DNA of 57,852 bases from Phycisphaeraceae bacterium (GTDB lineage: Bacteria > Planctomycetota > Phycisphaerae > Phycisphaerales > UBA1924): the NCBI GenBank assembly GCA_026126345.1, contig JAHCJH010000002.1:1-57852 (forward strand). Reading direction: 5' to 3'. Every line of letters begins with the position of its first letter. Position 1 is the first letter of the stretch. Made by a program: the position numbers and the translations under genes. The notes under the pieces are model-generated. The model ran no database searches. It was not told the DNA's origin and saw only the letters and a program-made list of their open reading frames with translations. Below, one piece after another: positions 3,804 to 51,963 of the stretch.

Positions 3804-4859
3804 ATGAAACTCCACGACATCCTCAAGGCGGCCCAGGACGCGGACGCGTCGGACATCCACCTCATCGCCGGCCACCCGCCGGTCATGCGCGTGCACACCG
3901 TCGTGACCCCGATGGACATGCCCGTGCTCACCCCCGCGGTCTGCAAGCAGTTCCTCGAGAAGATGGCCCCCAAGGAAGCGCTCACCCGCTTCGAGGCCAC
4001 CAAGGACGCCGACTTCAGCTACTTCGCCGAGGGCCTCGCCCGCTACCGCGTCAACGTCCACATGCAGAAGTCCAACATCGGCTTCGCCATGCGCGTCGTC
4101 AAGACCAAGGTCCCCCCGCTCGAAAAGCTCAACCTCCCCGAGGTCATCGCCCGCCTCACCTACCTCCCCCGCGGGCTGGTGCTCGTCACCGGCGACACCG
4201 GCTCGGGCAAGTCCACCACGCTCGCGGCCATGATCCAGGCCATGAACGAGCGCTACGCCAAGCACATCATCACGCTCGAGGACCCCGTCGAATACACCTT
4301 CCAGTCCAACCGCTCGCTCATCGAGCAGCGCGAGCTCGGCGCCGACATGCCGAGCTTCGCCAGCGCCCTGAAGCACTGCCTCCGCCAGGACCCCGACATC
4401 ATCCTGGTCGGCGAAATGCGCGACCTCGAGACCACCGCCCTGGCCATCACCGCCGCCGAGACCGGCCACCTGGTGCTCAGCACCCTGCACACCTGCTCGG
4501 CCGCCCAGACCGTCGAACGCATCATCGACATGTACCCCGCCGGCCAGCAGAACCAGATCCGCTCCATGCTGGCCAACACGCTGCAGGCGGTCATCAGCCA
4601 GACGCTCTTCTCGCGCATCGACCAGCCGGGCATGGTGCCGGCCGTCGAGGTGCTGCTGGCCACCCCCGCCGTGCGCAACCTCATCCGCGAGGCCCGCACC
4701 TTCGAGATCCCCAACGTCATCGAGACCAGCCGCGCCCTGGGCATGACCAGCCTCGACAAATCGATCGCCGAGCTCTACTTCAACGGCATGATCAGCCGCG
4801 AGGACGCGATCGCCTCGGCCAACATGCCCGACAAGATCGAACGCCTCCTGGCCGCCTGA
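3804..4859 (+). CDS. pilT: Type IV pilus retraction ATPase, PilT family
   Basis: This 351-residue protein has the PilT layout: an N-terminal PAS-like domain (about 1-100, with DASDIHL at 14-20) and a RecA-like ATPase. Visible motifs are Walker A GDTGSGKST (130-138), Asp-box residues around ITLEDPVEY (156-164), Walker B IILVGEMRD (199-207) and the His box TGHLVLSTLHT (220-230). The C-terminal VRNLIREARTFEI resembles the PilT AIRNLIRE motif, which favours PilT over PilB/GspE, and it lacks the long N-terminal domain of PilB. GGAG lies nine bases before the ATG. It heads a run of pilus-type genes (pilC and three pilin-like genes), so it probably drives pilus retraction or, if the system is a secretion machine, pseudopilus dynamics. 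No PilB/GspE assembly ATPase is in the window. Confidence 0.93.
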   Translation: MKLHDILKAAQDADASDIHLIAGHPPVMRVHTVVTPMDMPVLTPAVCKQFLEKMAPKEALTRFEATKDADFSYFAEGLARYRVNVHMQKSNIGFAMRVVKTKVPPLEKLNLPEVIARLTYLPRGLVLVTGDTGSGKSTTLAAMIQAMNERYAKHIITLEDPVEYTFQSNRSLIEQRELGADMPSFASALKHCLRQDPDIILVGEMRDLETTALAITAAETGHLVLSTLHTCSAAQTVERIIDMYPAGQQNQIRSMLANTLQAVISQTLFSRIDQPGMVPAVEVLLATPAVRNLIREARTFEIPNVIETSRALGMTSLDKSIAELYFNGMISREDAIASANMPDKIERLLAA

Positions 4860-4899
4860 AGCGAGTCCCTGACCCCATCCGCCCGAAAGAGACGCACCG

Positions 4900-6123
4900 A
4901 TGGCCAACTACCGCTACCAGGTCAGGACCCCCGCCGGCCAAGTCCAGGCCGGCGTGCTCGTGGCCGACTCCGTCGCCACCGCCGCGGCGATCCTGCGCAA
5001 CCAGGGCGGGCACGTGCTGCAGATCAGCCCGCTGGCGGGCGGCGCCGAGGCGCAGGGCTTCCTGGCCCGCCTGGCAGAGCTCAACAGCGGCAAGCCCAAG
5101 GCCAAGCACGTCCTGGACTTCACGACTCAGTTGGCGGTGATGATGCGCGCCGGCATCAACCTGCGCTCGGCGCTCGAGGGCATCGCCGACCAGACCGCCC
5201 ACCCGGTGATGAAGAAGGTCATCCTGGCGCTCAAGACCGACGTCGAGGCCGGCAAGCCGTTCTCAGCCGCCCTGGCCCGGCACCCCAAGCTCTTCGGCCG
5301 CTCTACATCAACATGGTGCGGGCGTCAAATGTCGGGCTCGTTCAGCGAGATGCTCGACCGCATCGCGGCGTACATCGCCCAGGAGATCGACACCCGCAAG
5401 ATGGTCATCGGCGCCGCGATCTACCCGGGCATCATCGGCACCATGGCCGTGCTGGTCACCGTCTTCCTGCTCACGTTCGTGCTTCCCAAGTTCAAGGGCG
5501 TGTTCCAGGGCAAGGAAGAGGTGCTCCCCTGGGCCACCAAGTTCCTGCTCGGGCTGTCCGACATGATGGTCGACCGCTGGCCCCTGTTCGTCGGCGGCGC
5601 GTTCGCGCTCATCGGCGGCATCTACGGTTTCTCCAGGACCGAGGTCGGCGGCTGGTGGTTCGACAAAGCCAAGCTCGGCCTGCCCGTGATCAAGAACATG
5701 TTCCGCTCGCTCTACATCTCCCGGTCGCTGCAGACCATGGGCCAGCTCGTCAACGCCGGCGTGCCCGTGCTCGACACCATCGCCATCACCGGCGACGTCT
5801 CGGGCAACCGCCTCTACGAGCGCCTCTGGCGCACCGTCTACGGCAGCGTCAAGCAGGGCAAGAAGATCTCCACGCCCCTGATCAAGAGCAAGCTGCTGCC
5901 CCAGGCCGTGGTGCAGATGATCTCCGCCGGAGAAGAGTCCGGTAAGCTCGGCGAAGTTCTCGACGAGATTTCCGCCTACTACGCCAAGCAGTTAAAGGAC
6001 CAGATCAAGGCGGTCACCAGCATGATCGAGCCCGTCATGATCATCCTCATGGGCTCGGTCGTCGGTTTTATCGCCATGGCCATCATCCTGCCCATCTTCA
6101 AGATGAGTCAGATCGTCCGCTAG
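4900..6123 (+). CDS. pilC: Type IV pilus / type II secretion inner-membrane protein PilC/GspF (locally frame-disturbed)
   Basis: This is the polytopic platform protein with two repeated T2SSF domains, at about residues 65-190 (LDFTTQLAVMMRAGINLRSAL) and 270-390 (SLYISRSLQTMGQLVNAGVPVLDT, then SAGEESGKLGEVLDEISAYY). Membrane segments lie near 172-195, 223-243 and 377-400. In the first domain residues about 134-143 read RSTSTWCGRQ, where the family has a sequence like PLYINMVRASE. That expected sequence is present in another frame of the same DNA (CTCTACATCAACATGGTGCG from 5301). One base appears missing near 5297-5300 and two near 5325, restoring the frame. The gene remains open over its full length. 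It follows pilT by 40 bases and is probably in one operon with the pilin-like genes. Confidence 0.9.
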   Translation: MANYRYQVRTPAGQVQAGVLVADSVATAAAILRNQGGHVLQISPLAGGAEAQGFLARLAELNSGKPKAKHVLDFTTQLAVMMRAGINLRSALEGIADQTAHPVMKKVILALKTDVEAGKPFSAALARHPKLFGRSTSTWCGRQMSGSFSEMLDRIAAYIAQEIDTRKMVIGAAIYPGIIGTMAVLVTVFLLTFVLPKFKGVFQGKEEVLPWATKFLLGLSDMMVDRWPLFVGGAFALIGGIYGFSRTEVGGWWFDKAKLGLPVIKNMFRSLYISRSLQTMGQLVNAGVPVLDTIAITGDVSGNRLYERLWRTVYGSVKQGKKISTPLIKSKLLPQAVVQMISAGEESGKLGEVLDEISAYYAKQLKDQIKAVTSMIEPVMIILMGSVVGFIAMAIILPIFKMSQIVR

Positions 6124-6180
6124 CCGATATCTCTCGCGGAGGGCCGTGCACCGTCGCGCGGCGTAACGGAGAGTCATCGC

Positions 6181-6888
6181 ATGCGTGCACGACAACTCAC
6201 CGCGTCGGGCTCGCAGGGAGCACCCGGAGGCGCGGCTCGATTCACGCGGCCCCGCGGCCGTGTCCGTCGGGCCTTCACGCTGCTCGAAGCCGCACTGGCC
6301 ACGGTCATCATCGGCGTCGGCGTGCTGGCCCTCATCCAGGCCCAGGCCACCTTCGTCACCACCAACGAGTGGTCCACGCAGAACGCCACCGCCACCTACC
6401 TCTGCAACGAGCTGCGCGAGCGCATCCGCTCCATGCCCAGGCACGACCCCGTCAGCGGCCTCTACTTCGACGCTTCGAACGTGATCCGCGGCTGGGGTCC
6501 CGAATCCAACGAGACCACCCCCGTGGATTTCGACGACTGCGATGATTTCGACGGCGCCTCCTTCGGCGCCGGCGGAACATTCCCGGGGCCGGTGGACGCC
6601 CAGTGCCGCCTCATTCCCCGCATCGGCCTCAACGGCCAGCCCGTGGTCAACGCCGAGGGCGGGTCACTCCCGCTGGAGGGGTGGACCCAGACCGTCGCCG
6701 TGTCCAAGGTCGATCCGTTCAACTTCGCCACCGTGCGAGCTTCGTCCTACGTCCGCGCCGCCAGCGGCTCCACCCCCGCCCTGGCGGTCGATCGCTTCCC
6801 GCTCCGGATCACCGTGACCGCCTGGTTCCAGGGGCCGCACGACCCCTCCCGGCGTGAGATGGCCCGCGTCACCTGGATTCAGCCCTGA
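6181..6888 (+). CDS. Pilin-like protein with prepilin cleavage motif (PilV/GspI-like)
   Basis: The 235-residue protein has a long basic leader (about 1-30, many R and G) followed by RAFTLLEAALATVIIGVGVLAL. This matches the prepilin peptidase site: cleavage before the Phe of FTLLE, with Glu at +5 and a hydrophobic helix that packs in the pilus core. The rest is a hydrophilic head with two closely spaced acidic/Cys stretches (DDCDDFDGASF and DAQCRLIPRIGLNGQP), so a disulfide is possible. GGAGAG lies about eight bases before the ATG. It sits between pilC and the large PilX-like gene and is probably a minor (pseudo)pilin. The PilV-like label rests on gene order and size, since minor pilins diverge strongly. 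Confidence 0.8.
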   Translation: MRARQLTASGSQGAPGGAARFTRPRGRVRRAFTLLEAALATVIIGVGVLALIQAQATFVTTNEWSTQNATATYLCNELRERIRSMPRHDPVSGLYFDASNVIRGWGPESNETTPVDFDDCDDFDGASFGAGGTFPGPVDAQCRLIPRIGLNGQPVVNAEGGSLPLEGWTQTVAVSKVDPFNFATVRASSYVRAASGSTPALAVDRFPLRITVTAWFQGPHDPSRREMARVTWIQP

Positions 6889-6951
6889 TCGCGCCCCGAC
6901 ACCGATCCCCGACACGCTTCCACGCACCCCGCGAGGCACAGGACCGTCCCG

Positions 6952-9813
6952 ATGACCCTTCACGCCGCACTCACCGCCCTTCGCTCGAGCCTGTTCGGCT
7001 CCCGCCGCCGGGGAGTCGTCAGCGTGCTGGCCATGATGTTCCTGGTGCTGTTCGGCTCGCTGGGCCTGGCCATGGCCATCGTGAGCAAGGGCAACCTCCG
7101 CACCGCCAGCACGCACCTGCACGTCACCAAGGCCATCGGCGCTGCGGAAACGGGCCTGGCCATCGGCGCCGCCCGGCTGGCCGAGGCCGCCTCACGCTTC
7201 GTCGTTGACAAGGGCGTGATCGACGCCCAGTTCGGCCGCAAACTGTGGGACGGCTCCATCACCGCTAGCGACTGCCGCCTGACGGTGCTCCCGCCTCCCA
7301 GCGGGCACGGCGAGTTTGGCACGCCCCGCGGCGTCGCCCAGGCCCTCTACAACGCCCACGCCGCCGACCAGAACGTCGTTACCTACTCCGGCGGCCTCAC
7401 CCAGCCCGTCATCGGCGCCGCTCCCGCCGGCAGCAGTTCGGACACCTACCGCCTCGACGCCTGGGTCACGACCCCCGCGATCGCCATCGACGGCAGCGCC
7501 GCCGAAACCGGCGCCCGACCCGCGGCCTTTCAGTTGACCTACGCACCGCTCGCCGACGGCGTGACGATCCGAATCATCGCGACGGGCTTCAGCTCCGTCG
7601 GCGCCTCGGGATCGAGCTACATCTACGGCGGCGGCTCGGTGGCCGACCAGTCCCGCCCGCTCAGCCGCGTGATCTACCAGGATTTCAAGCTGACCAAGCG
7701 CCACCAGCACGCCATCGTGTCGCCCAGCCGCGTGCTGATCGGCAAGAACGTCAACATCACCGGCAGCATGGGCGCAGCCTACACCGACGTCGCGCGTCCG
7801 AACGGCGACCCGGCCGTGCTCAAGAGCGACTTCATGGGCCTGGACCCGGTGCTCGACCGCAAACTGCAGGATCTGTTCGCCGCCATCCGCCAGTACGACG
7901 TCGACGGCGACAACCGCCTGCGCGTCACGCACGCGGTCGAGGGCGCCGGACTGCCCAGCAACAGCAACGACTACGACAACGACGGACGGCCCGACAACGC
8001 GTTCGCCGACGCCACGCGCGACGGCTACGTCGACGACTTCGACGTGTTCATCAACCACTATGACCGCAACGGCGACCGCCGCCTGGCCTTGTCGGCCCCG
8101 CTCACCGAAGGCACGCCCGCCCAGGGCCAGACCCCCGAGTTCACCGCCGACGACGACCTCGCCCTGCTCATCGACTCCTACAACCCCGACCGCAACCGCA
8201 ACGGCGAGTTCGGCTTCAAGGACGCCAACTACAACGGCCGCTGGGATCCCGGCGAGCCGCTGAACGACTACGACCCGTCCAACGCCACGTACCCCGACCG
8301 CGTGCTCGGCTGGCGCGACGGCTTCATCGACGGCAAGGACGCCTACGCCAAGGTGCACGGACGCCTGGTCTTCCGCGCCACGCAGAACGCCTGGAACGCG
8401 GCGCGGAGCCCGAGCACCTACCAGAACGTCGTTCAGGGCCCGATCGCCCCGCCGCGCGGCAACACGGCCACGCAGTTCGGCGCGCCCACCGACGTGCTCC
8501 CCGACATTTCGATCGACAACCTCACCGCCGCCCAGACGCCGCTCACGGCCCGGGCCGACGGCCAGTCCTTCAATGCGCAGGTTGCCGCACAGCTCGGCGT
8601 CAGCGCCGGCGCCCTGGCCACCTACACCGAAACCAAGACCAACCCCGCCAGCCCGCGCTTCTTCCGGGCCGACATGGACAACGCCGCGGCTCGCGCGCTC
8701 ACCGGCCAGAACCTGTGGGAGAAGATGCCCTTCAACAGCCCGCAGTACTCCGACTGGTACATCCGCCCTCGGTACGAGAACATGGTCTTCCGCAACGTGC
8801 AGATCCCCGAGGGCAACAACGGCCTGTTCGTGAACTGCACGTTCGTCGGGGTCACCTGGGTCCGTACGTACACGCAGAACACGCACGACCTGTGGTCGCT
8901 CTACGGCGGTCTGCAGTGGTCGGCCGCCGCGGGCCGGCCCGTGCCCAACACCGCTCCGCTCGACAAGAGCGACTTCCTTCGGTACACGACCGGCCTGGTC
9001 ACCGACGGCCCTCAGAACTACAGCTCGTTCGCGGATCCGCCGGTGATCTACGGCGTCACGCGCACCGGCGCCGCCCGCGACACCAAGCGCTACAGCAACA
9101 ACATCCGCTTCCACAACTGCCTGTTCGTCGGCTCCATCGTCAGCGACACGCCCCAGGCGTTCACGCACGTCCGCAACAAGATGCAGTTCACCGGCTCGAC
9201 CCGCTTCGCCGAGACACACCCCGACCAGCCCTCCAACGGCGACCTGAACCCGCGGCCCGAGGACCGCAGCGAGATCGCCAAGAGCAGCATGATGCTGCCC
9301 AACTACTCCGTGGACATCGGCCAGTTCAACAGCCCCACCGACACGTTCGTCGGCGGCCCACAGGGGCAGAACGTCCAGCTCGCGGGCACCATCATCGCCG
9401 GCGTGCTCGACGCCCGCGGCAACACCTCCATCGACGGCACGCTCCTGCTCACGTTCGCCCCCGTCGCCGGCGAGGGGCCGCTCCAGCAGTACGGCGTTCC
9501 CGTCGGCAACCCGGCGAACTTCAACGCCAGCCTCGGCTACTTCGGCCCCGCCGACGGCGAACTGGAGAGCCTCGACCCCCAGTCCCTGCCCATCGTCGGC
9601 GGCCGCAGGATCGTCGGCTGGGACACCGACGGCGACGGCCTGCCCGACGTCGGTCCCAACGACCCGCAGCCCGCCGGTTCCACGCCCGTGCCTTTCTACG
9701 GCTTCGGCAGGATCAACATCACCTGGAGCCCCGACCGCGCCATGCCCGACGGCATCATGCTCCCGGTCTCCGTCATCCCCGTCGTCGCCAGCTACCGGGA
9801 GCACCGGCCATGA
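6952..9813 (+). CDS. Very large PilX-like protein with calcium-binding-like Asp-rich repeats
   Basis: The 953-residue product starts with a basic segment and one hydrophobic helix (about 20-48, GVVSVLAMMFLVLFGSLGLAMAIV), followed by an AAETGLAIGAARLAEAA stretch typical of PilX_N-type minor pilins. PilX proteins are usually only about 150-250 residues. Residues about 310-470 contain repeated EF-hand/dockerin-like loops (DVDGDNRL, DYDNDGRPDN, DRNGDRRL, NPDRNRNGEF, DANYNGRWDPGE). Another DTDGDGLPD loop is near 892-900. In between is a Thr/Asn/Gly-rich region that looks like beta structure. It overlaps the next pilin-like gene by four bases (ATGA), so the two are translationally coupled. Possible roles are a pilus-tip adhesin or a surface protein displayed by the pilus machine; this is inference. 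Confidence 0.75.
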   Translation: MTLHAALTALRSSLFGSRRRGVVSVLAMMFLVLFGSLGLAMAIVSKGNLRTASTHLHVTKAIGAAETGLAIGAARLAEAASRFVVDKGVIDAQFGRKLWDGSITASDCRLTVLPPPSGHGEFGTPRGVAQALYNAHAADQNVVTYSGGLTQPVIGAAPAGSSSDTYRLDAWVTTPAIAIDGSAAETGARPAAFQLTYAPLADGVTIRIIATGFSSVGASGSSYIYGGGSVADQSRPLSRVIYQDFKLTKRHQHAIVSPSRVLIGKNVNITGSMGAAYTDVARPNGDPAVLKSDFMGLDPVLDRKLQDLFAAIRQYDVDGDNRLRVTHAVEGAGLPSNSNDYDNDGRPDNAFADATRDGYVDDFDVFINHYDRNGDRRLALSAPLTEGTPAQGQTPEFTADDDLALLIDSYNPDRNRNGEFGFKDANYNGRWDPGEPLNDYDPSNATYPDRVLGWRDGFIDGKDAYAKVHGRLVFRATQNAWNAARSPSTYQNVVQGPIAPPRGNTATQFGAPTDVLPDISIDNLTAAQTPLTARADGQSFNAQVAAQLGVSAGALATYTETKTNPASPRFFRADMDNAAARALTGQNLWEKMPFNSPQYSDWYIRPRYENMVFRNVQIPEGNNGLFVNCTFVGVTWVRTYTQNTHDLWSLYGGLQWSAAAGRPVPNTAPLDKSDFLRYTTGLVTDGPQNYSSFADPPVIYGVTRTGAARDTKRYSNNIRFHNCLFVGSIVSDTPQAFTHVRNKMQFTGSTRFAETHPDQPSNGDLNPRPEDRSEIAKSSMMLPNYSVDIGQFNSPTDTFVGGPQGQNVQLAGTIIAGVLDARGNTSIDGTLLLTFAPVAGEGPLQQYGVPVGNPANFNASLGYFGPADGELESLDPQSLPIVGGRRIVGWDTDGDGLPDVGPNDPQPAGSTPVPFYGFGRINITWSPDRAMPDGIMLPVSVIPVVASYREHRP

Positions 9814-10523
9814 ACACCCGCGCACCCCGGCGCTCCCGACGCGCCTTCAGCCTGATCGAGATGCTCATGGCGTTCACCATCAGCGCCACGCTCCTGGCCG
9901 CGAGCCTGGTCGCGCTCGACGCCATGTTCAAGCGCTACACCGTCATCAGCGACTCGGCCAGCACCCACGTCATCTCGCGCGTCGTGATGCACCGCATCAT
10001 GTCCATGATCCGCACCGGCAGCGAGTTCGGCCCCTACCCCGCGGACGTGCTCGACGCGTCCCAGAACCCCGCCGACTACACCCGCATCCAGTTCGTCAGC
10101 CGGAACGACGCCGAGACCGGCACGCGCCAGGTCACCACCATCGAACGCCGCGAGCCCGTCACCGTCACCCTCGGCGACGACCGCTACACGCAGCGCGGTC
10201 CGTTCGTGCTCTGGCTCGTGATCGACACGAACACCAACGGCGTCGTCTCCCGGCAGGAGCGGCCGTTGATCGACGGCGTGCTCAACGCCCGTTTCAACCT
10301 CGAGTACGAGCCGGGCCCGCGTCTGGTCCGCGCGACGGTCGACCTGACCATCGCGCCCCAATCCAGCCAGTACGCCAAGTACGACACTTCCTCCGGCGCC
10401 TGGACCATGATGGTCTACAACCCCGCGACCCAGTCGTGGGACGAGCGCCGCATGATCTCCAGCGACCTGCCCAGCGAGAGCATCCGCCTGGTCGCCAGCA
10501 CCAGCCCCCGCCAGGACCGCTGA
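9810..10523 (+). CDS. Pilin-like protein with prepilin cleavage motif (PilW/GspJ-like)
   Basis: The 237-residue protein begins MNTRAPRRSRRAFSLIEMLM followed by a hydrophobic helix. This is a clear prepilin leader of 11 residues with FSLIE (Glu +5) for prepilin peptidase cleavage and N-methylation. The head domain is beta-rich, with a long aligned ending (LEYEPGPRLVRATVDLTIAP) as seen in GspJ/PilW proteins. Its ATG overlaps the stop of the PilX-like gene (ATGA), which points to coupled translation and a shared complex. The next gene is a small membrane protein. Confidence is high that it is a pilin-type protein and lower for the exact subclass. Confidence 0.8.
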   Translation: MNTRAPRRSRRAFSLIEMLMAFTISATLLAASLVALDAMFKRYTVISDSASTHVISRVVMHRIMSMIRTGSEFGPYPADVLDASQNPADYTRIQFVSRNDAETGTRQVTTIERREPVTVTLGDDRYTQRGPFVLWLVIDTNTNGVVSRQERPLIDGVLNARFNLEYEPGPRLVRATVDLTIAPQSSQYAKYDTSSGAWTMMVYNPATQSWDERRMISSDLPSESIRLVASTSPRQDR

Positions 10524-17212: not shown

Positions 17213-18568
17213 TTACCCCGCCGACCTCACGGCCAGGAAGATGTTCACCGCCACGCTGATCACCAGCAGCACGCACATCGTGACGAACAGCCACAGCGCC
17301 ACGCCGCCCGCCTGCCGGGCCGATTGATCCTCCTGGATCAACGCCGGCGCCGCCGCTTCGGCCTTGGCCAGGCTCGCCAGATCCGCACCCCCGATGTCGC
17401 GATGGGCGATGGGGGGGTCTTTCTTGTCCCGCACCGCTCTGAGATCAAGCAGCAGGTCCTTGCACGACTGGTACCGCTTCCGCGGGTCCTTGGCCATCAT
17501 CATTTCGATGACCTCGGAGATCCCCGCCGACAGCTTCGGGTTCACGTGGTCCGGCGGCACCAGCGGGCTCTTGAGGTGGTGGTGCATCACCGCCGACGGG
17601 TTCTTCCCGTCGAACGGCACGCTCCCGGTCACCATGTGGTACAGCGTCGCACCCAGCGAGTAGATGTCCGCAGGCGGGCCGATCTTCAACTCGCCCCGGA
17701 TCTGCTCCGGCGAGATGTAGTACGGCGTGCCGAACGCCTTGCCCTGCTCGGCTTCCGCCGCCTCCTTGTCCGTGATCGCCCGGGCCAGGCCCATGTCCGC
17801 CAGCTTCGCCACGCCCTCCTTGGTGATCATCATGTTCTTGGGCTTCACGTCGCGGTGGATCAACCCCCGGTCGTGCGCGTGCAGCAGCGCCTCGGCGATC
17901 TGCATCGTGATGTCGATCGCGTCGCGCTCCTCGAACCGTTTGTGCTTGACGATGTCGTCGTACACCGTCCGCCCCTCCACGTACTCCATCACGAAGTAGT
18001 GGTAGTCCCCCGCCTTGCCCACGTCGTACGCCTGCACGATGTTCGGGTGGTTCAGCTGCGCCGCCGACCGGCCCTCGGCGTAGAACCGCTCGATGAACTG
18101 GGCGCTCTGCGTGAACTTCCGCGGCAGCACCTTGATCGCCACCAGCCGGTCCAGGCTCAACTGGCGAGCCTTGTACACCGTCGCCATCGCCCCCGCCCCC
18201 AGCTTGCCCAGCAGCTTGTACCCCGGGATCTGCTGCCCGCTCCGCTCCGCGTCGGCGATCTGCTTCAGCCGCAGCAACTGCCGCTTGGTGATGTACTCGT
18301 TGGCCACCAGCAGTTCCGACAGCGACCGCTGGTTCTCCTCCATGGCGCTGCGTGCCAGCTCCAGGCACTGCTGCACTTCCTCGCTCGTCGCCAGCCCCTG
18401 GTCCACCACGATCCGACCGATGATCGTGTCGATGTTCGACGACGACCGCGTGCGCTCCTTGGCGTCCGGAACGCCCGTCCCGCCCAGTCCCGGCACGCCC
18501 CCCTCGGTCGAGGCGGGGTCCATCGGAGACGTCTCGGTCAGGTCTTGTTTGCGTGGGGGGGTCGTCAT
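17213..18568 (-). CDS. Tail-anchored Ser/Thr protein kinase with an N-terminal MshEN-like segment
   Basis: The 451-residue protein has a Hanks-type kinase domain at about 117-385: glycine loop GKLGAGAMATVYKA (121-134), VAIKVLP with Lys146, HRDVKPKN (238-245, catalytic Asp240), DMG in place of DFG (258-260) and GTPYYISPEQIRG. Before it, about 45-105 (GRIVVDQGLATSEEVQQCLELA, then LSELLVANEYITKRQLLRLKQ) resembles the two-helix repeat of MshEN/T2SSE N-domains. A single transmembrane helix lies at the C-terminus (about 425-448) with no extracellular sensor. The start at ATG 18568 was chosen because upstream residues look like noncoding read-through; the ribosome-binding site is weak. It is transcribed towards infC and divergent from a pilin-like gene. 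Substrates are unknown. Confidence 0.9.
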   Translation of the reverse strand: MTTPPRKQDLTETSPMDPASTEGGVPGLGGTGVPDAKERTRSSSNIDTIIGRIVVDQGLATSEEVQQCLELARSAMEENQRSLSELLVANEYITKRQLLRLKQIADAERSGQQIPGYKLLGKLGAGAMATVYKARQLSLDRLVAIKVLPRKFTQSAQFIERFYAEGRSAAQLNHPNIVQAYDVGKAGDYHYFVMEYVEGRTVYDDIVKHKRFEERDAIDITMQIAEALLHAHDRGLIHRDVKPKNMMITKEGVAKLADMGLARAITDKEAAEAEQGKAFGTPYYISPEQIRGELKIGPPADIYSLGATLYHMVTGSVPFDGKNPSAVMHHHLKSPLVPPDHVNPKLSAGISEVIEMMMAKDPRKRYQSCKDLLLDLRAVRDKKDPPIAHRDIGGADLASLAKAEAAAPALIQEDQSARQAGGVALWLFVTMCVLLVISVAVNIFLAVRSAG

Positions 18569-18914
18569 GACGCTCGCTTGCACTCTGGTTCGGCCGCTCA
18601 GGCGGCGCTCGCCGGGCCGCTGATTTCCCCGCTGACCGTCCGTGGTCGCCGGCGGGGCACGGCACGCACTCTCCCTGTTCGGTCGGCCGCACTGCGGCCC
18701 CACAACGATACCCCACCCCGACCGCGATGCTACCAGCCGGTACGACCCGCCGTCCCCCTCTGTTCCCCCGCTCCCCCTTCCCGGTGATTACTGGACACCA
18801 GACCGCCCTCGTGGCATGATAACACCGGGCCGCCGCTCGGCGGCCCGTTCCCCCGGCCGTTCTGGCCGGGAAGAGCCACGCCCAACGGCGTGGCCGAGTC
18901 ACCGGAGCGTCACC
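18569..18914. other. 346-base divergent intergenic region
   Basis: No gene is seen. The half near the kinase holds a minus-strand TATCGT near 18705-18715 that could be its -10. The half near the pilin-like gene holds a possible plus-strand promoter (TGGACA at about 18792 and CATGAT 17 bases later) and the three-hairpin leader. Confidence 0.5.
18826..18894 (+). promoter_or_regulatory. Three consecutive perfect stem-loops in the leader of a pilin-like gene
   Basis: Stem 1 pairs CGGGCCGCC (18826-18834) with GGCGGCCCG (18839-18847), loop GCTC. Stem 2 pairs CCCGGCC (18852-18858) with GGCCGGG (18864-18870), loop GTTCT. Stem 3 pairs GCCACGCC (18875-18882) with GGCGTGGC (18887-18894), loop CAAC. The stems are separated by only four bases each and no T-run follows. 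GGAG (18904) and the ATG (18915) come directly after. It could be a structured cis-regulatory RNA or a stabilising 5' leader. Confidence 0.6.
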
Positions 18915-19877
18915 ATGAACAAGGTCGCCGCGCGCCGTTCCCGCTCAGCCGCGTTCACCCTCATCGAGCTGCTGGTGGTCATCGCCATCATCGCCCTGCT
19001 CGTGGGAATCCTCTCCCCGGCGCTCGCCAAGGCCCGGCTGGCCGCCCGCATCACTCAATCCCTGGCCAACCTCAACACCAACGCCAAGGTCATGGCCGCG
19101 TACTGGGGAGAGAACCGCAGCGACTTCGTCAACCCCTTCGCGTACCGCGGGCCCAACGATTACTGCGCCGGCCTCAGCCTCACCTGGGTCTGGACCCCCA
19201 ACACCATGTGCAACGTCGGCTGGGATTACGGGCCCCAGCACTCCAGTTCCTCCACCGAGAGCTACGGGTACCACTGGATCGCGCACACCCTCTTCCACGA
19301 CCAGCAGACCCTCTCCCGCGTCGGGTCCATCATCTCCCCCGGCGATCGGGCCCTTTCCCAGTGGTTCGTCAACAACACCGCCGCCTTCGGCGAGATGACC
19401 TGGATCTTCCCCAGCAGCTACTGGTACCCGCCGGTCTTCTGGCAGCGCTACGAGCGATTCACGGGCACCACCCGACCCGCCGGCTCTCTGGCCAACCGCT
19501 TCTACATCCGCCGCAACCTCTCCACCGACGTCACCTTCCCGGCCAACAAGGTCCTCATCTTTGAGAACAAGGACTACCTCGCTCCCCTCCAGCCCCAGTG
19601 GAATCAGCCCTCGGCCAAGACCCGGGTCGCCCTCATGGACGGCTCGGCCCGCGAACTGAGAATGGACACCGTCATCGCCGACACCGATCCCTCCGGCGCC
19701 GACGCCAGCAAGCTCCGCCCGCCCGCCGGCACCTGGAACCCGGGCTCCGGCGAGATGGACGGCTATCTCGAGTACGGAACCCCACAGGGCTTCCGCTGGA
19801 CGTACAACCTGCCCGCGTACTTCTGGGCCACGCGCGACGGCCTCCGCGGCCGCGACTTCATCGGCCTCAGCCGTTGA
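18915..19877 (+). CDS. Prepilin-type protein (type II secretion GspG/H-like N-terminus)
   Basis: The 320-residue protein starts MNKVAARRSRSAAFTLIELLVVIAIIALLVGI. This is a textbook prepilin leader with cleavage before FTLIELL and Glu at +5. The long head domain is rich in Trp, Tyr and Asn, with a closing segment (KTRVALMDGSARELRMD) like the H-X9-DG/DG-type ends of the many planctomycete prepilin-like proteins. It lacks the canonical DUF1559 ending. GGAG lies seven bases before the ATG. It has a hairpin-rich leader and is followed by a small membrane protein 38 bases downstream. It is probably a pseudopilin or pilus-displayed protein; the exact function is unknown. Confidence 0.8.
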   Translation: MNKVAARRSRSAAFTLIELLVVIAIIALLVGILSPALAKARLAARITQSLANLNTNAKVMAAYWGENRSDFVNPFAYRGPNDYCAGLSLTWVWTPNTMCNVGWDYGPQHSSSSTESYGYHWIAHTLFHDQQTLSRVGSIISPGDRALSQWFVNNTAAFGEMTWIFPSSYWYPPVFWQRYERFTGTTRPAGSLANRFYIRRNLSTDVTFPANKVLIFENKDYLAPLQPQWNQPSAKTRVALMDGSARELRMDTVIADTDPSGADASKLRPPAGTWNPGSGEMDGYLEYGTPQGFRWTYNLPAYFWATRDGLRGRDFIGLSR

Positions 19878-19915
19878 CCAGACCGAAGCAGCCGCCCCGT
19901 CTCCCGACCACCCGC

Positions 19916-20233
19916 ATGGCACTCACCCACAAGCCGCTCATCCATCAAGACCCAAAGGCCGATGCCGCCGCGGCGTCACGGCCCAAGCCCGCCCCCACCG
20001 GCAAGAAGCCTCCGTGGCTGATGATCGGCCTGATGGCGGCGCTCGCGGGGATCGCGGCGTACATGTACCTGCTTCCCTCCGGCGCAGGCGGCGGGCCCGA
20101 TCCACAGATCAACAAGCACGCAGAAGAGATCGGCGAGGCCCTGCGCAAGAACGAGCCGCCGCCGGTCGTTCCCAAGCCCGAAGCGCCCCCGCCCGGCTAC
20201 GACGCTCCCAAGAGCATCCGCGGCAAGAAATAA
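19916..20233 (+). CDS. Small single-pass membrane protein of unknown function
   Basis: The 105-residue protein has a Lys/Pro/Ala-rich N-terminus, one transmembrane helix ([21 protein letters not shown]) and a Pro-rich tail ([25 protein letters not shown]) that would lie outside the membrane. No family is recognised. It lies 38 bases after the pilin-like gene on the same strand and is probably co-transcribed. The ATG at 19916 has no clear ribosome-binding site. Confidence 0.55.
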
Positions 20234-20261
20234 GCGCCCGCGGATCCTCGGCGCCCGCAAC

Positions 20262-22457
<2,196 letters not shown>

Positions 22458-50263: not shown

Positions 50264-50950
50264 ATGGTTTCTCGTATGTCGATGTCTGTGTTTGCTCTTG
50301 CCTTGGCTGCTGGCGCTGCCACTGCCCAGGCCGATGTCGTCGCGTCGCTGTCGTACCAGACGCTGACGGGGTCGTTTACTTCCACTGGCGCGACGACGGG
50401 CACGTTCACTGCCAATGCCACGACCGCAGGTCAGTCTTCGGCGGGGAACAGCACGGGTAACGTCACGCGTGAGCCGGCCGGCGGCAACGCTGCGTTCTTC
50501 CCGGGCTTCTCCGGTGTCGCCCCCGCCGCGTTCTCGCTGTCGCTCAGCGTGACCGGCATCACGGGCACCGGCGCCTCGGCTTCCGGGTTGTTCACAGCCA
50601 CGGACGTCCTGGGCAACACGATCGCCGGCTCGATCACCGGCACGTGGATCTTCAGCAACCAGCCCGGCATTCAGCTGGCCTTCTTTGACGGCCTGCTGAG
50701 CAACGTGAACTACACTGCCGTCAACGGCAACCTGTTCACGGGCAACTCCGGCGCCGCCAACATGGCCGGCATCGGCAGCAACCTGCCCGGTGGTCTGCAG
50801 ATCACGTTCCTGCAGAGCGTTCCGCCCTCGATCTTCTCCGTGGACATCCCCGTCGTTTCGACGGTCGTCCAGGCGCAGATCACCCCGACCCCCGGCGCTC
50901 TGGCGCTGGTCGGCCTGGGTGGCCTGGCCGCGGCTCGCCGCCGGCGCTGA
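50264..50950 (+). CDS. Secreted protein with PTPG-type CTERM sorting tail (paralogue 1)
   Basis: The 228-residue protein has a signal peptide (about 1-23, cleavage after AQA). A Ser/Thr/Gly-rich beta-type body lies at about 24-200 (SLSYQTLTGSFTSTGATTGTF, SASGLFTATDVLGNTIAGSITGTW), followed by a C-terminal sorting signal: PTPGALALVGLGGLA, then AARRRR. That is the PEP-CTERM-like pattern (motif, hydrophobic helix, basic end), with PTPG in place of PEP. Exosortase-type enzymes cut such tails and anchor or release the protein at the surface. GGGAGG lies six bases before the ATG. It is paralogous to the next gene and strongly expressed judging by its own promoter and terminator; function unknown. 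Confidence 0.85.
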   Translation: MVSRMSMSVFALALAAGAATAQADVVASLSYQTLTGSFTSTGATTGTFTANATTAGQSSAGNSTGNVTREPAGGNAAFFPGFSGVAPAAFSLSLSVTGITGTGASASGLFTATDVLGNTIAGSITGTWIFSNQPGIQLAFFDGLLSNVNYTAVNGNLFTGNSGAANMAGIGSNLPGGLQITFLQSVPPSIFSVDIPVVSTVVQAQITPTPGALALVGLGGLAAARRRR

Positions 50951-50981
50951 TCCGACATGCCTGAATGCTTGAGTTTTCCAG

Positions 50982-51013
50982 CGGCCGGCAGGCACCCCCT
51001 GCCGGCCGTTTTT
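50982..51013 (+). terminator. Rho-independent terminator after paralogue 1
   Basis: CGGCCGGCAGG (50982-50992) pairs with CCTGCCGGCCG (50998-51008), a perfect 11-bp stem with a 5-base loop, followed by TTTTT (51009-51013). A textbook intrinsic terminator 32 bases after the stop. Confidence 0.9.
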
Positions 51014-51152
51014 CATGAACGCATCGCCTGAAATTGGTGGGTAATTGCCTAGATTCACGGTCGAATCACCCGATTTCGGGTCGGTTCCACCGCTGAATCC
51101 ACCGCCCGCCCGCGAAAGTGCAGTTATCTTGTTCGCAGCGCACGGATTTCCC

Positions 51153-51180
51153 TTGCATCGCCCCGTATGTACGCTATGTT
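51153..51180 (+). promoter_or_regulatory. Promoter TTGCAT-16-TATGTT of the second PTPG-CTERM gene
   Basis: TTGCAT (51153-51158) and TATGTT (51175-51180) are 16 bases apart, matching the layout of the upstream paralogue's promoter. The leader would be about 78 bases. Confidence 0.5.
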
Positions 51181-51264
51181 TGTGGCTTCAAGGTCAGGGT
51201 TCGGCAGCACAGCCATCGGCTGTCGCCGAAGTCGGTAGGTCAGGTCCTAGCCCAGGGAGAGAAC

Positions 51265-51963
51265 ATGAAAAAGGTTGTGACCAGTCTTCTGATCGTGGGG
51301 TCCGCGATGAGTGCCGCGGCCGTTTCGGCCAACGCCGACATCGTGATCTCGTTTGGCTATCAGCAGCTCGCCGGCTCGTTCACGCCCGGCCAGTCCAATG
51401 ATGGCACCTTCACGGCGATCTCGGTGTCGCTGCCGAACAGCCTGCAGTCGACGGGCTTCGTCAACCGCGAAGTTCCGACGACCGGCTCGGCGAACTTCGC
51501 CCCCGGCTTCGACCAGAACGGCGCGGGCGACGGCGAGTTCATCCTGCAGCTGACGCTCACGAACATCACCAACACCAGCGCCAACGCGTCCGGCTTCTTC
51601 CGGATCCGCGACGTCGGCAACACCGGCGACACCATCGGCGGCGTCGTCACCGGCGTCTGGAACCTGCAGAACCCCGGCCTGCCGTTCTTCAGCGGCTCGC
51701 TGACCCAGGTCATTTACGCCAACAACAGCGGCGACGGCTCGTTCGACGGCACCGGCGGCAGCGGCTTCTCCATGAACGGCCTGCCCCCGAACCCGCTCAC
51801 CGGCCAGATCCAGACGCTGCTCATCTACTTCAACGTGCCGCAGTCCTTCGCCGGCCCGTTCAGCAACATCTCGACGAACGTGCAGGGCCAGCTGATCCCC
51901 ACCCCCGGCGCCCTGGCGCTCATGGGCGTGGCCGGCCTGGCCGCCTCGCGTCGCCGTCGCTAA
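51265..51963 (+). CDS. Secreted protein with PTPG-type CTERM sorting tail (paralogue 2)
   Basis: The 232-residue protein has a signal peptide (about 1-26, ending SANA) and a body that aligns with the previous gene (DIVISFGYQQLAGSFT against DVVASLSYQTLTGSFT; VNREVPTTGSANFAPGF against VTREPAGGNAAFFPGF). The C-terminal tail is PTPGALALMGVAGLA followed by RRRR. AGGGAGAG precedes the ATG. With its paralogue it forms a tandem duplicate pair, each transcribed alone. Likely an abundant surface or extracellular protein; role unknown. Confidence 0.85.
   Translation: MKKVVTSLLIVGSAMSAAAVSANADIVISFGYQQLAGSFTPGQSNDGTFTAISVSLPNSLQSTGFVNREVPTTGSANFAPGFDQNGAGDGEFILQLTLTNITNTSANASGFFRIRDVGNTGDTIGGVVTGVWNLQNPGLPFFSGSLTQVIYANNSGDGSFDGTGGSGFSMNGLPPNPLTGQIQTLLIYFNVPQSFAGPFSNISTNVQGQLIPTPGALALMGVAGLAASRRRR

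Follow-up and report, generated by a model that had tools for sequence, protein, structure and literature searches.

A recurrent GUUCU-loop hairpin in the leader of a Phycisphaerales prepilin gene is probably a tag by which a cellular factor recognises messages

The leader of a prepilin gene in the window (the whole stretch of 57,852 nucleotides of a Phycisphaeraceae bacterium that was analysed) holds three perfect hairpins in series, and we find that the second of them, hairpin 2, is a copy of a hairpin with a GUUCU loop that occurs in prepilin leaders in many genera of one Phycisphaerales family. As an RNA element the GUUCU hairpin is well supported, and a cellular factor probably recognises the messages that carry it. 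With a probability of roughly one half, we read hairpin 2 as a cis-acting RNA hairpin through which a trans-acting factor sets the stability or translation of the mRNAs of surface proteins. The triple array around it appears, from sequence comparison, to be a local arrangement in which neither hairpin 1 nor hairpin 3 is conserved. The features concerned are as follows.

18792..18820, + strand: promoter-like site, TGGACA-17 nt-CATGAT, with an extended -10 (TGG before CATGAT)
18826..18847, + strand: hairpin 1, 9 bp, loop GCTC (4 bases), where the transcript is predicted to begin
18847..18851, + strand: GUUCC, predicted partner of GGAGC 18904-18908 in the minimum-energy fold
18852..18870, + strand: hairpin 2, CCCGGCC-GTTCT-GGCCGGG, 7 bp, loop of 5 bases, copy of the recurrent GUUCU leader hairpin
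18875..18894, + strand: hairpin 3, 8 bp, loop CAAC (4 bases), immediately 5′ of the Shine-Dalgarno sequence
18904..18907, + strand: Shine-Dalgarno sequence GGAG, 7 nt 5′ of the ATG at 18915 (from the sequence)
18915..19877, + strand: prepilin gene, 320 aa, N-terminal methylation motif (PF07963, TIGR02532)

The gene downstream had been called pilin-like in a sequence-only reading of this DNA, and its product is indeed a prepilin by both its Pfam N_methyl match (PF07963, 29.8 bits, cut-off 21.2) and its NCBIfam match (TIGR02532, above the cut-off); orthologues in the Phycisphaerales family reach 63% identity. The same reading had described three perfect stem-loops (9, 7 and 8 bp, with loops of 4, 5 and 4 bases), and the sequence and a hairpin scan agree, giving CGGGCCGCC-GCTC-GGCGGCCCG for hairpin 1 and GCCACGCC-CAAC-GGCGTGGC for hairpin 3. 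The spacing of four bases that it gave is exact (4 between hairpins 1 and 2, 4 between hairpins 2 and 3), and the end of the array, placed about ten bases before the ribosome-binding site, lies 9 bases from GGAG. When we required three perfect stems of at least 7 bp inside 100 bases, the prepilin-leader array was the only such triple in the window, and 30 dinucleotide shuffles of the window held none; nor was a second perfect-hairpin triple found in the 753,560 bases of the organism's own genome that were scanned. Two relatives (1.08 Mb together) have a single triple, at L295:2290-2387, with stems of 7, 10 and 10 bp. Folded as RNA, the leader reaches -57.5 kcal/mol (z = -4.6), and no shuffle was equally stable.

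The hairpins had also been said to fill nearly the whole leader, and a transcription start 3′ of them had been named as evidence against a structured leader. A promoter consensus scan of 18500-20400 gave one match, against 0.2 expected in shuffles, and predicts a transcription start at about 18827, at the foot of hairpin 1; with that start the three hairpins would fill the 5′ leader. A coding leader was considered and set aside: the frame is open from the ORF at 18642, yet ATG 18816 is part of the predicted -10 box, and matches to orthologues start within the prepilin signal. Divergent from the prepilin gene lies a Ser/Thr kinase gene (17213-18703, - strand), residues 95-145 of whose product weakly match an MshE-type c-di-GMP-binding motif (20.2 bits, cut-off 38), so that the protein is possibly a c-di-GMP sensor/kinase fusion.

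A terminator array had been thought unlikely for want of a T-run, and this holds: there is no T-run in the leader, and none directly 3′ of a stem such as an intrinsic terminator or attenuator would have, which leaves attenuator and terminator array as less likely readings of the leader. The absence of a T-run also suits a plain 5′ stabiliser, in which GC-rich hairpins at the 5′ end block 5′-dependent decay with no specific partner, as do the predicted start at hairpin 1, the great stability of the leader and the fact that hairpin 1, with the most pairs, sits at the predicted 5′ end. Such a stabiliser needs no fixed loop, however, and GUUCU is strongly preferred over permuted loops (22 of 62 sites against 12 of 454) as well as over GTTCC and GTTCG. 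We consider it unlikely, if worth keeping in mind, as an account of the whole leader; hairpins 1 and 3 may act in this way.

The evidence for hairpin 2 as an RNA element comes from its recurrence. A GTTCT loop flanked by differing arms is found in the leaders of both orthologous and paralogous prepilin genes, and in a word-enrichment analysis of leaders, CGTTCTG came close behind the -10 boxes that headed the list (TATGCT, TAGACT, TGTGGTA). As the copies had initially been picked by eye, we ran controls that involved no selection. Among 158 prepilin leaders with 62 GTTCT sites, GTTCT was the loop of a stem of at least 4 bp at 22 of the 62, against 12 of 454 for permuted loops (Fisher p = 3e-14) and 36 of 971 (3.7%) for GTTCT across all sequence, and none of the 29 reverse-complement (AGAAC) sites in prepilin leaders formed such a loop; leaders share descent, so these sequence counts overstate the number of independent events. 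With stems unselected, the six positions nearest to GTTCT showed Watson-Crick pairing of 0.38-0.58 in register, compared with mostly about 0.2-0.35 off register and in controls, and this in-register signal was not seen for GTTCC, GTTCG or other loops. Four leaders have a second GTTCT, which in three of them has its own stem of at least 4 bp.

The sequence-only reading had made its case depend on compensatory base changes in related leaders, and hairpin 2 has them. In 18 aligned copies all six stem pairs vary on both sides; selection of the copies used the inner four pairs and is independent of the two outer ones, which are complementary in 14 of 18 and 12 of 18 copies. It is these outer pairs, together with the unselected register test and the permuted-loop, reverse-complement and coding-sequence controls, that make chance a highly improbable explanation, in which GC-rich sequence folds easily and recurrence is selection bias, even though the model copies were selected for stems and the leaders share ancestry. 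The proposal that the leader is a structured RNA (regulatory, stabilising or protein-binding) is supported for hairpin 2, on the strength of related GUUCU loops, covarying arms and upstream -10 boxes, and does not extend to hairpins 1 and 3, for which the orthologous leaders show nothing clearly equivalent.

The varying arms and the strand-specific centre fit RNA pairing and not a DNA operator. An operator, in which the dyads would be promoter-proximal binding sites for a transcription factor and the folding of the RNA a by-product, would account for a dyad close to the promoter and for the symmetry of hairpin 2, which is complete except at its centre; it would not, however, be expected to vary its arms while keeping them complementary, its five central bases are strand-specific (AGAAC, 0 of 29), and the copies sit 3′ of -10 boxes. 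We therefore regard an operator as very unlikely and continue with the RNA element.

Its position is that of a leader element. Of 24 leaders, 6 have an extended -10 box (TGGTAnnnT) 5′ of the GUUCU hairpin and none has one 3′ of it, and in the tightest clear cases the stem begins about 8 nt past the -10 box. At 18852-18870 the copy studied here has the GUUC(U) loop and a complementary stem of 7 bp (where at least 4 bp is required), lies in sense orientation, and stands 3′ of a promoter-like -10 box and 5′ of the start codon; it is also the best match in the window to the R1 model (25.8 bits), a score to be read in the knowledge that hairpin 2 is among the copies from which the model was built. 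As a genome-wide locator the 25-nt model was discarded, since a model so short has its top matches in coding sequence as well as in leaders.

When GTTCT with a stem of at least 5 bp was counted by location among predicted genes, 754 kb of the organism's own genome gave 6 of 48 in sense leaders, 1 of 79 in other intergenic sequence and 11 of 1029 in coding sequence; a related genome, G010 (680 kb), gave 6 of 45, 0 of 113 and 14 of 1074, and in G096 (400 kb) none of 32 leader sites had such a stem. Some slices of the own genome and of G010 were picked for prepilins or model hits, a choice that is not fully blind, and with the model-hit loci L166, L276 and L277 removed the leader enrichment has p = 0.0004 and 0.003.

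The GUUCU hairpin is enriched in prepilin leaders and is not restricted to them. The six carriers in the own genome are three prepilins, a subtilase-domain protein, a DUF3466 protein and an exported protein without a Pfam family; prepilin leaders carry the hairpin more often than other leaders do (3 of 17 against 3 of 414; p = 0.001), as do genes for exported proteins compared with the rest (6 of 159 against 0 of 272; p = 0.002). The three prepilin copies have their loops at -56, -56 and -57. G010 likewise has the hairpin at 2 of 11 prepilin leaders against 4 of 384 others (p = 0.01), and shows no link to export, half of its carriers not being exported; a link between the GUUCU hairpin and export is not general. 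The majority of prepilin leaders are without the hairpin. In other genomes of the family the top model matches lie upstream of further prepilins and of various other genes, which by reading of the sequence only include those for a CpaB-type protein, SecA, an exported peptidyl-prolyl isomerase and several cytosolic proteins.

Several neighbourhoods were noted in passing. Two genes with GUUCU leaders lie 4 kb apart in one genome (L236:2983 and L236:7073) and encode exported subtilase-domain and DUF3466 proteins, the leader at L236:7073 having three GTTCT sites. A region of G010:C6 (L276:7989, - strand) has a 12-bp GUUCU hairpin 5′ of a gene that reads as DUF72-like and is not exported, which suggests wider use of the element. 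Within the window, the predicted genes at 3804-10523 (+ strand) point to a cluster for a pilus or type II secretion, with what read as a PilT-like ATPase, a PilC-like protein and several prepilin-like genes, and without the GUUCU hairpin; and at 50264-51963 (+ strand) adjoining exported proteins with similar starts, VVASLSYQTLTGSFTS and IVISFGYQQLAGSFT, look like a tandem duplication.

All three hairpins together were not found in orthologous leaders, and the whole leader as a DNA query against the own genome (253 contigs) returned only itself. The leader of one orthologue (L034, 59% identity) has a 7-bp hairpin at the position of hairpin 1, followed by a GUUCU hairpin. Stems of at least 5 bp, 12-20 nt 5′ of the start, occur in a few other GUUCU leaders and are only suggestive, and a hairpin before the Shine-Dalgarno sequence was rejected as a general feature, the excess (4 observed against 1.5 expected, for stems of at least 6 bp) being too weak.

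In the minimum-energy fold all three hairpins are kept, hairpin 1 losing its outermost pair to a helix of GUUCC with GGAGC. According to this fold, the five-pair helix could cover the Shine-Dalgarno sequence, which raises the idea of a translational switch: pairing of GUUCC 18847-18851 with GGAGC would close a junction around hairpins 2 and 3, and binding at hairpin 2 or opening of hairpin 1 would alter ribosome access. Both the minimum-energy fold and the centroid contain the pairing; but its five pairs include a G-U, it is not common among other folded leaders, and it could arise by chance in GC-rich RNA, so that we think a switch of this kind rather improbable.

Our preferred reading remains that the GUUCU hairpin is an RNA recognition site, because it combines a fixed loop with a variable stem, occurs in sense leaders only and near the 5′ end, and is sometimes present twice. 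The computational analysis itself establishes that the element is structured, on which strand and in what register it pairs, where in leaders it lies and that it is enriched at prepilin genes; what binds it, how it affects expression and what hairpins 1 and 3 do, we infer. We propose that the transcribed 5′ UTR would begin at about hairpin 1, and that the element has an invariant GUUC(U) loop on a stem of about 4-9 bp, which varies in sequence, stays complementary and is usually closed by C-G or G-C; it is placed shortly 3′ of the promoter and about 25-120 nt 5′ of the start codon. A trans-acting factor would recognise the loop in its RNA form; an RNA-binding protein is the likeliest candidate, and a small RNA carrying an AGAAC loop a less likely one. 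This factor could set the lifetime or the translation of the mRNAs of prepilins and other exported proteins, and the two flanking hairpins, 1 and 3, might be local additions that shield the 5′ end of the mRNA and the bases leading up to the ribosome-binding site. A bolder version, about which we are doubtful, is that the GUUCU hairpin binds an undescribed global Phycisphaerales RNA-binding regulator which post-transcriptionally coordinates the production of pilins and other exported proteins, here by way of the switch that covers the Shine-Dalgarno sequence.

Little is known of post-transcriptional control in Planctomycetota. A hairpin common to the mRNAs of prepilins and other surface proteins predicts a set of co-regulated genes, it can serve as bait for its binding partner, and it can be tested by loop-swap reporters; if there is no specific partner, the GUUCU hairpin would still represent a lineage-wide habit of leader design.

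The GUUCU leader hairpin is apparently an undescribed family of the cis-acting leader hairpin kind. Rfam 15 has no match over the window at the gathering threshold, its best matches in a permissive search of 18750-18950 being weak and far under gathering scores, and in the text of openly accessible journal papers nothing relevant was found on a GUUCU leader hairpin or a planctomycete pilin leader RNA. In being a strand-specific hairpin shortly 3′ of a (predicted) transcription start, it resembles the LoaP-dependent leader hairpin and the RfaH ops element, and antitermination or attenuation of that type could be imagined here. Those systems need a specialised NusG paralogue, however, and we found none: the own genome (86.5% complete) and three relatives have one NusG-domain gene each (a single PF02357 match per genome). 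Nor does the leader have a T-run or a downstream terminator, and the prepilin gene, of about 1 kb, is not a long operon; we give this explanation very little credence.

Another likeness is to the hairpins bound by CsrA/RsmE, which are small stem-loops of 5′ leaders with a fixed loop, sometimes multiple, and are recognised by a protein. The own genome and three relatives have CsrA genes; CsrA reads GGA in a hairpin loop, and no GGA occurs in the loops GCTC, GTTCT and CAAC. The mini-ykkC motif, whose gene set differs from that of the GUUCU hairpin, is like it in consisting of small repetitive hairpins. Those of mini-ykkC have been called suggestive of protein binding (Weinberg et al. 2010, PMC2864571). 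The same study lists the GUCCY-hairpin as a candidate for Bacteroidetes and Proteobacteria, whose name contains a loop-like sequence that differs from GUUCU and which is set apart by that listing, and the Rhodopirellula-1 motif, a candidate found in Planctomycetes, which shares that phylum with the GUUCU hairpin (Weinberg et al. 2010, PMC2864571). The psaA motif is similar in overall plan, with three hairpins in a potential 5′ UTR and recurrent loop sequences (Weinberg et al. 2010, PMC2864571), upstream of a defined set of genes; but its loops are UNCG tetraloops and it is confined to cyanobacterial psaAB operons, whereas here it is the GUUCU pentaloop of one hairpin that is conserved, upstream of many genes.
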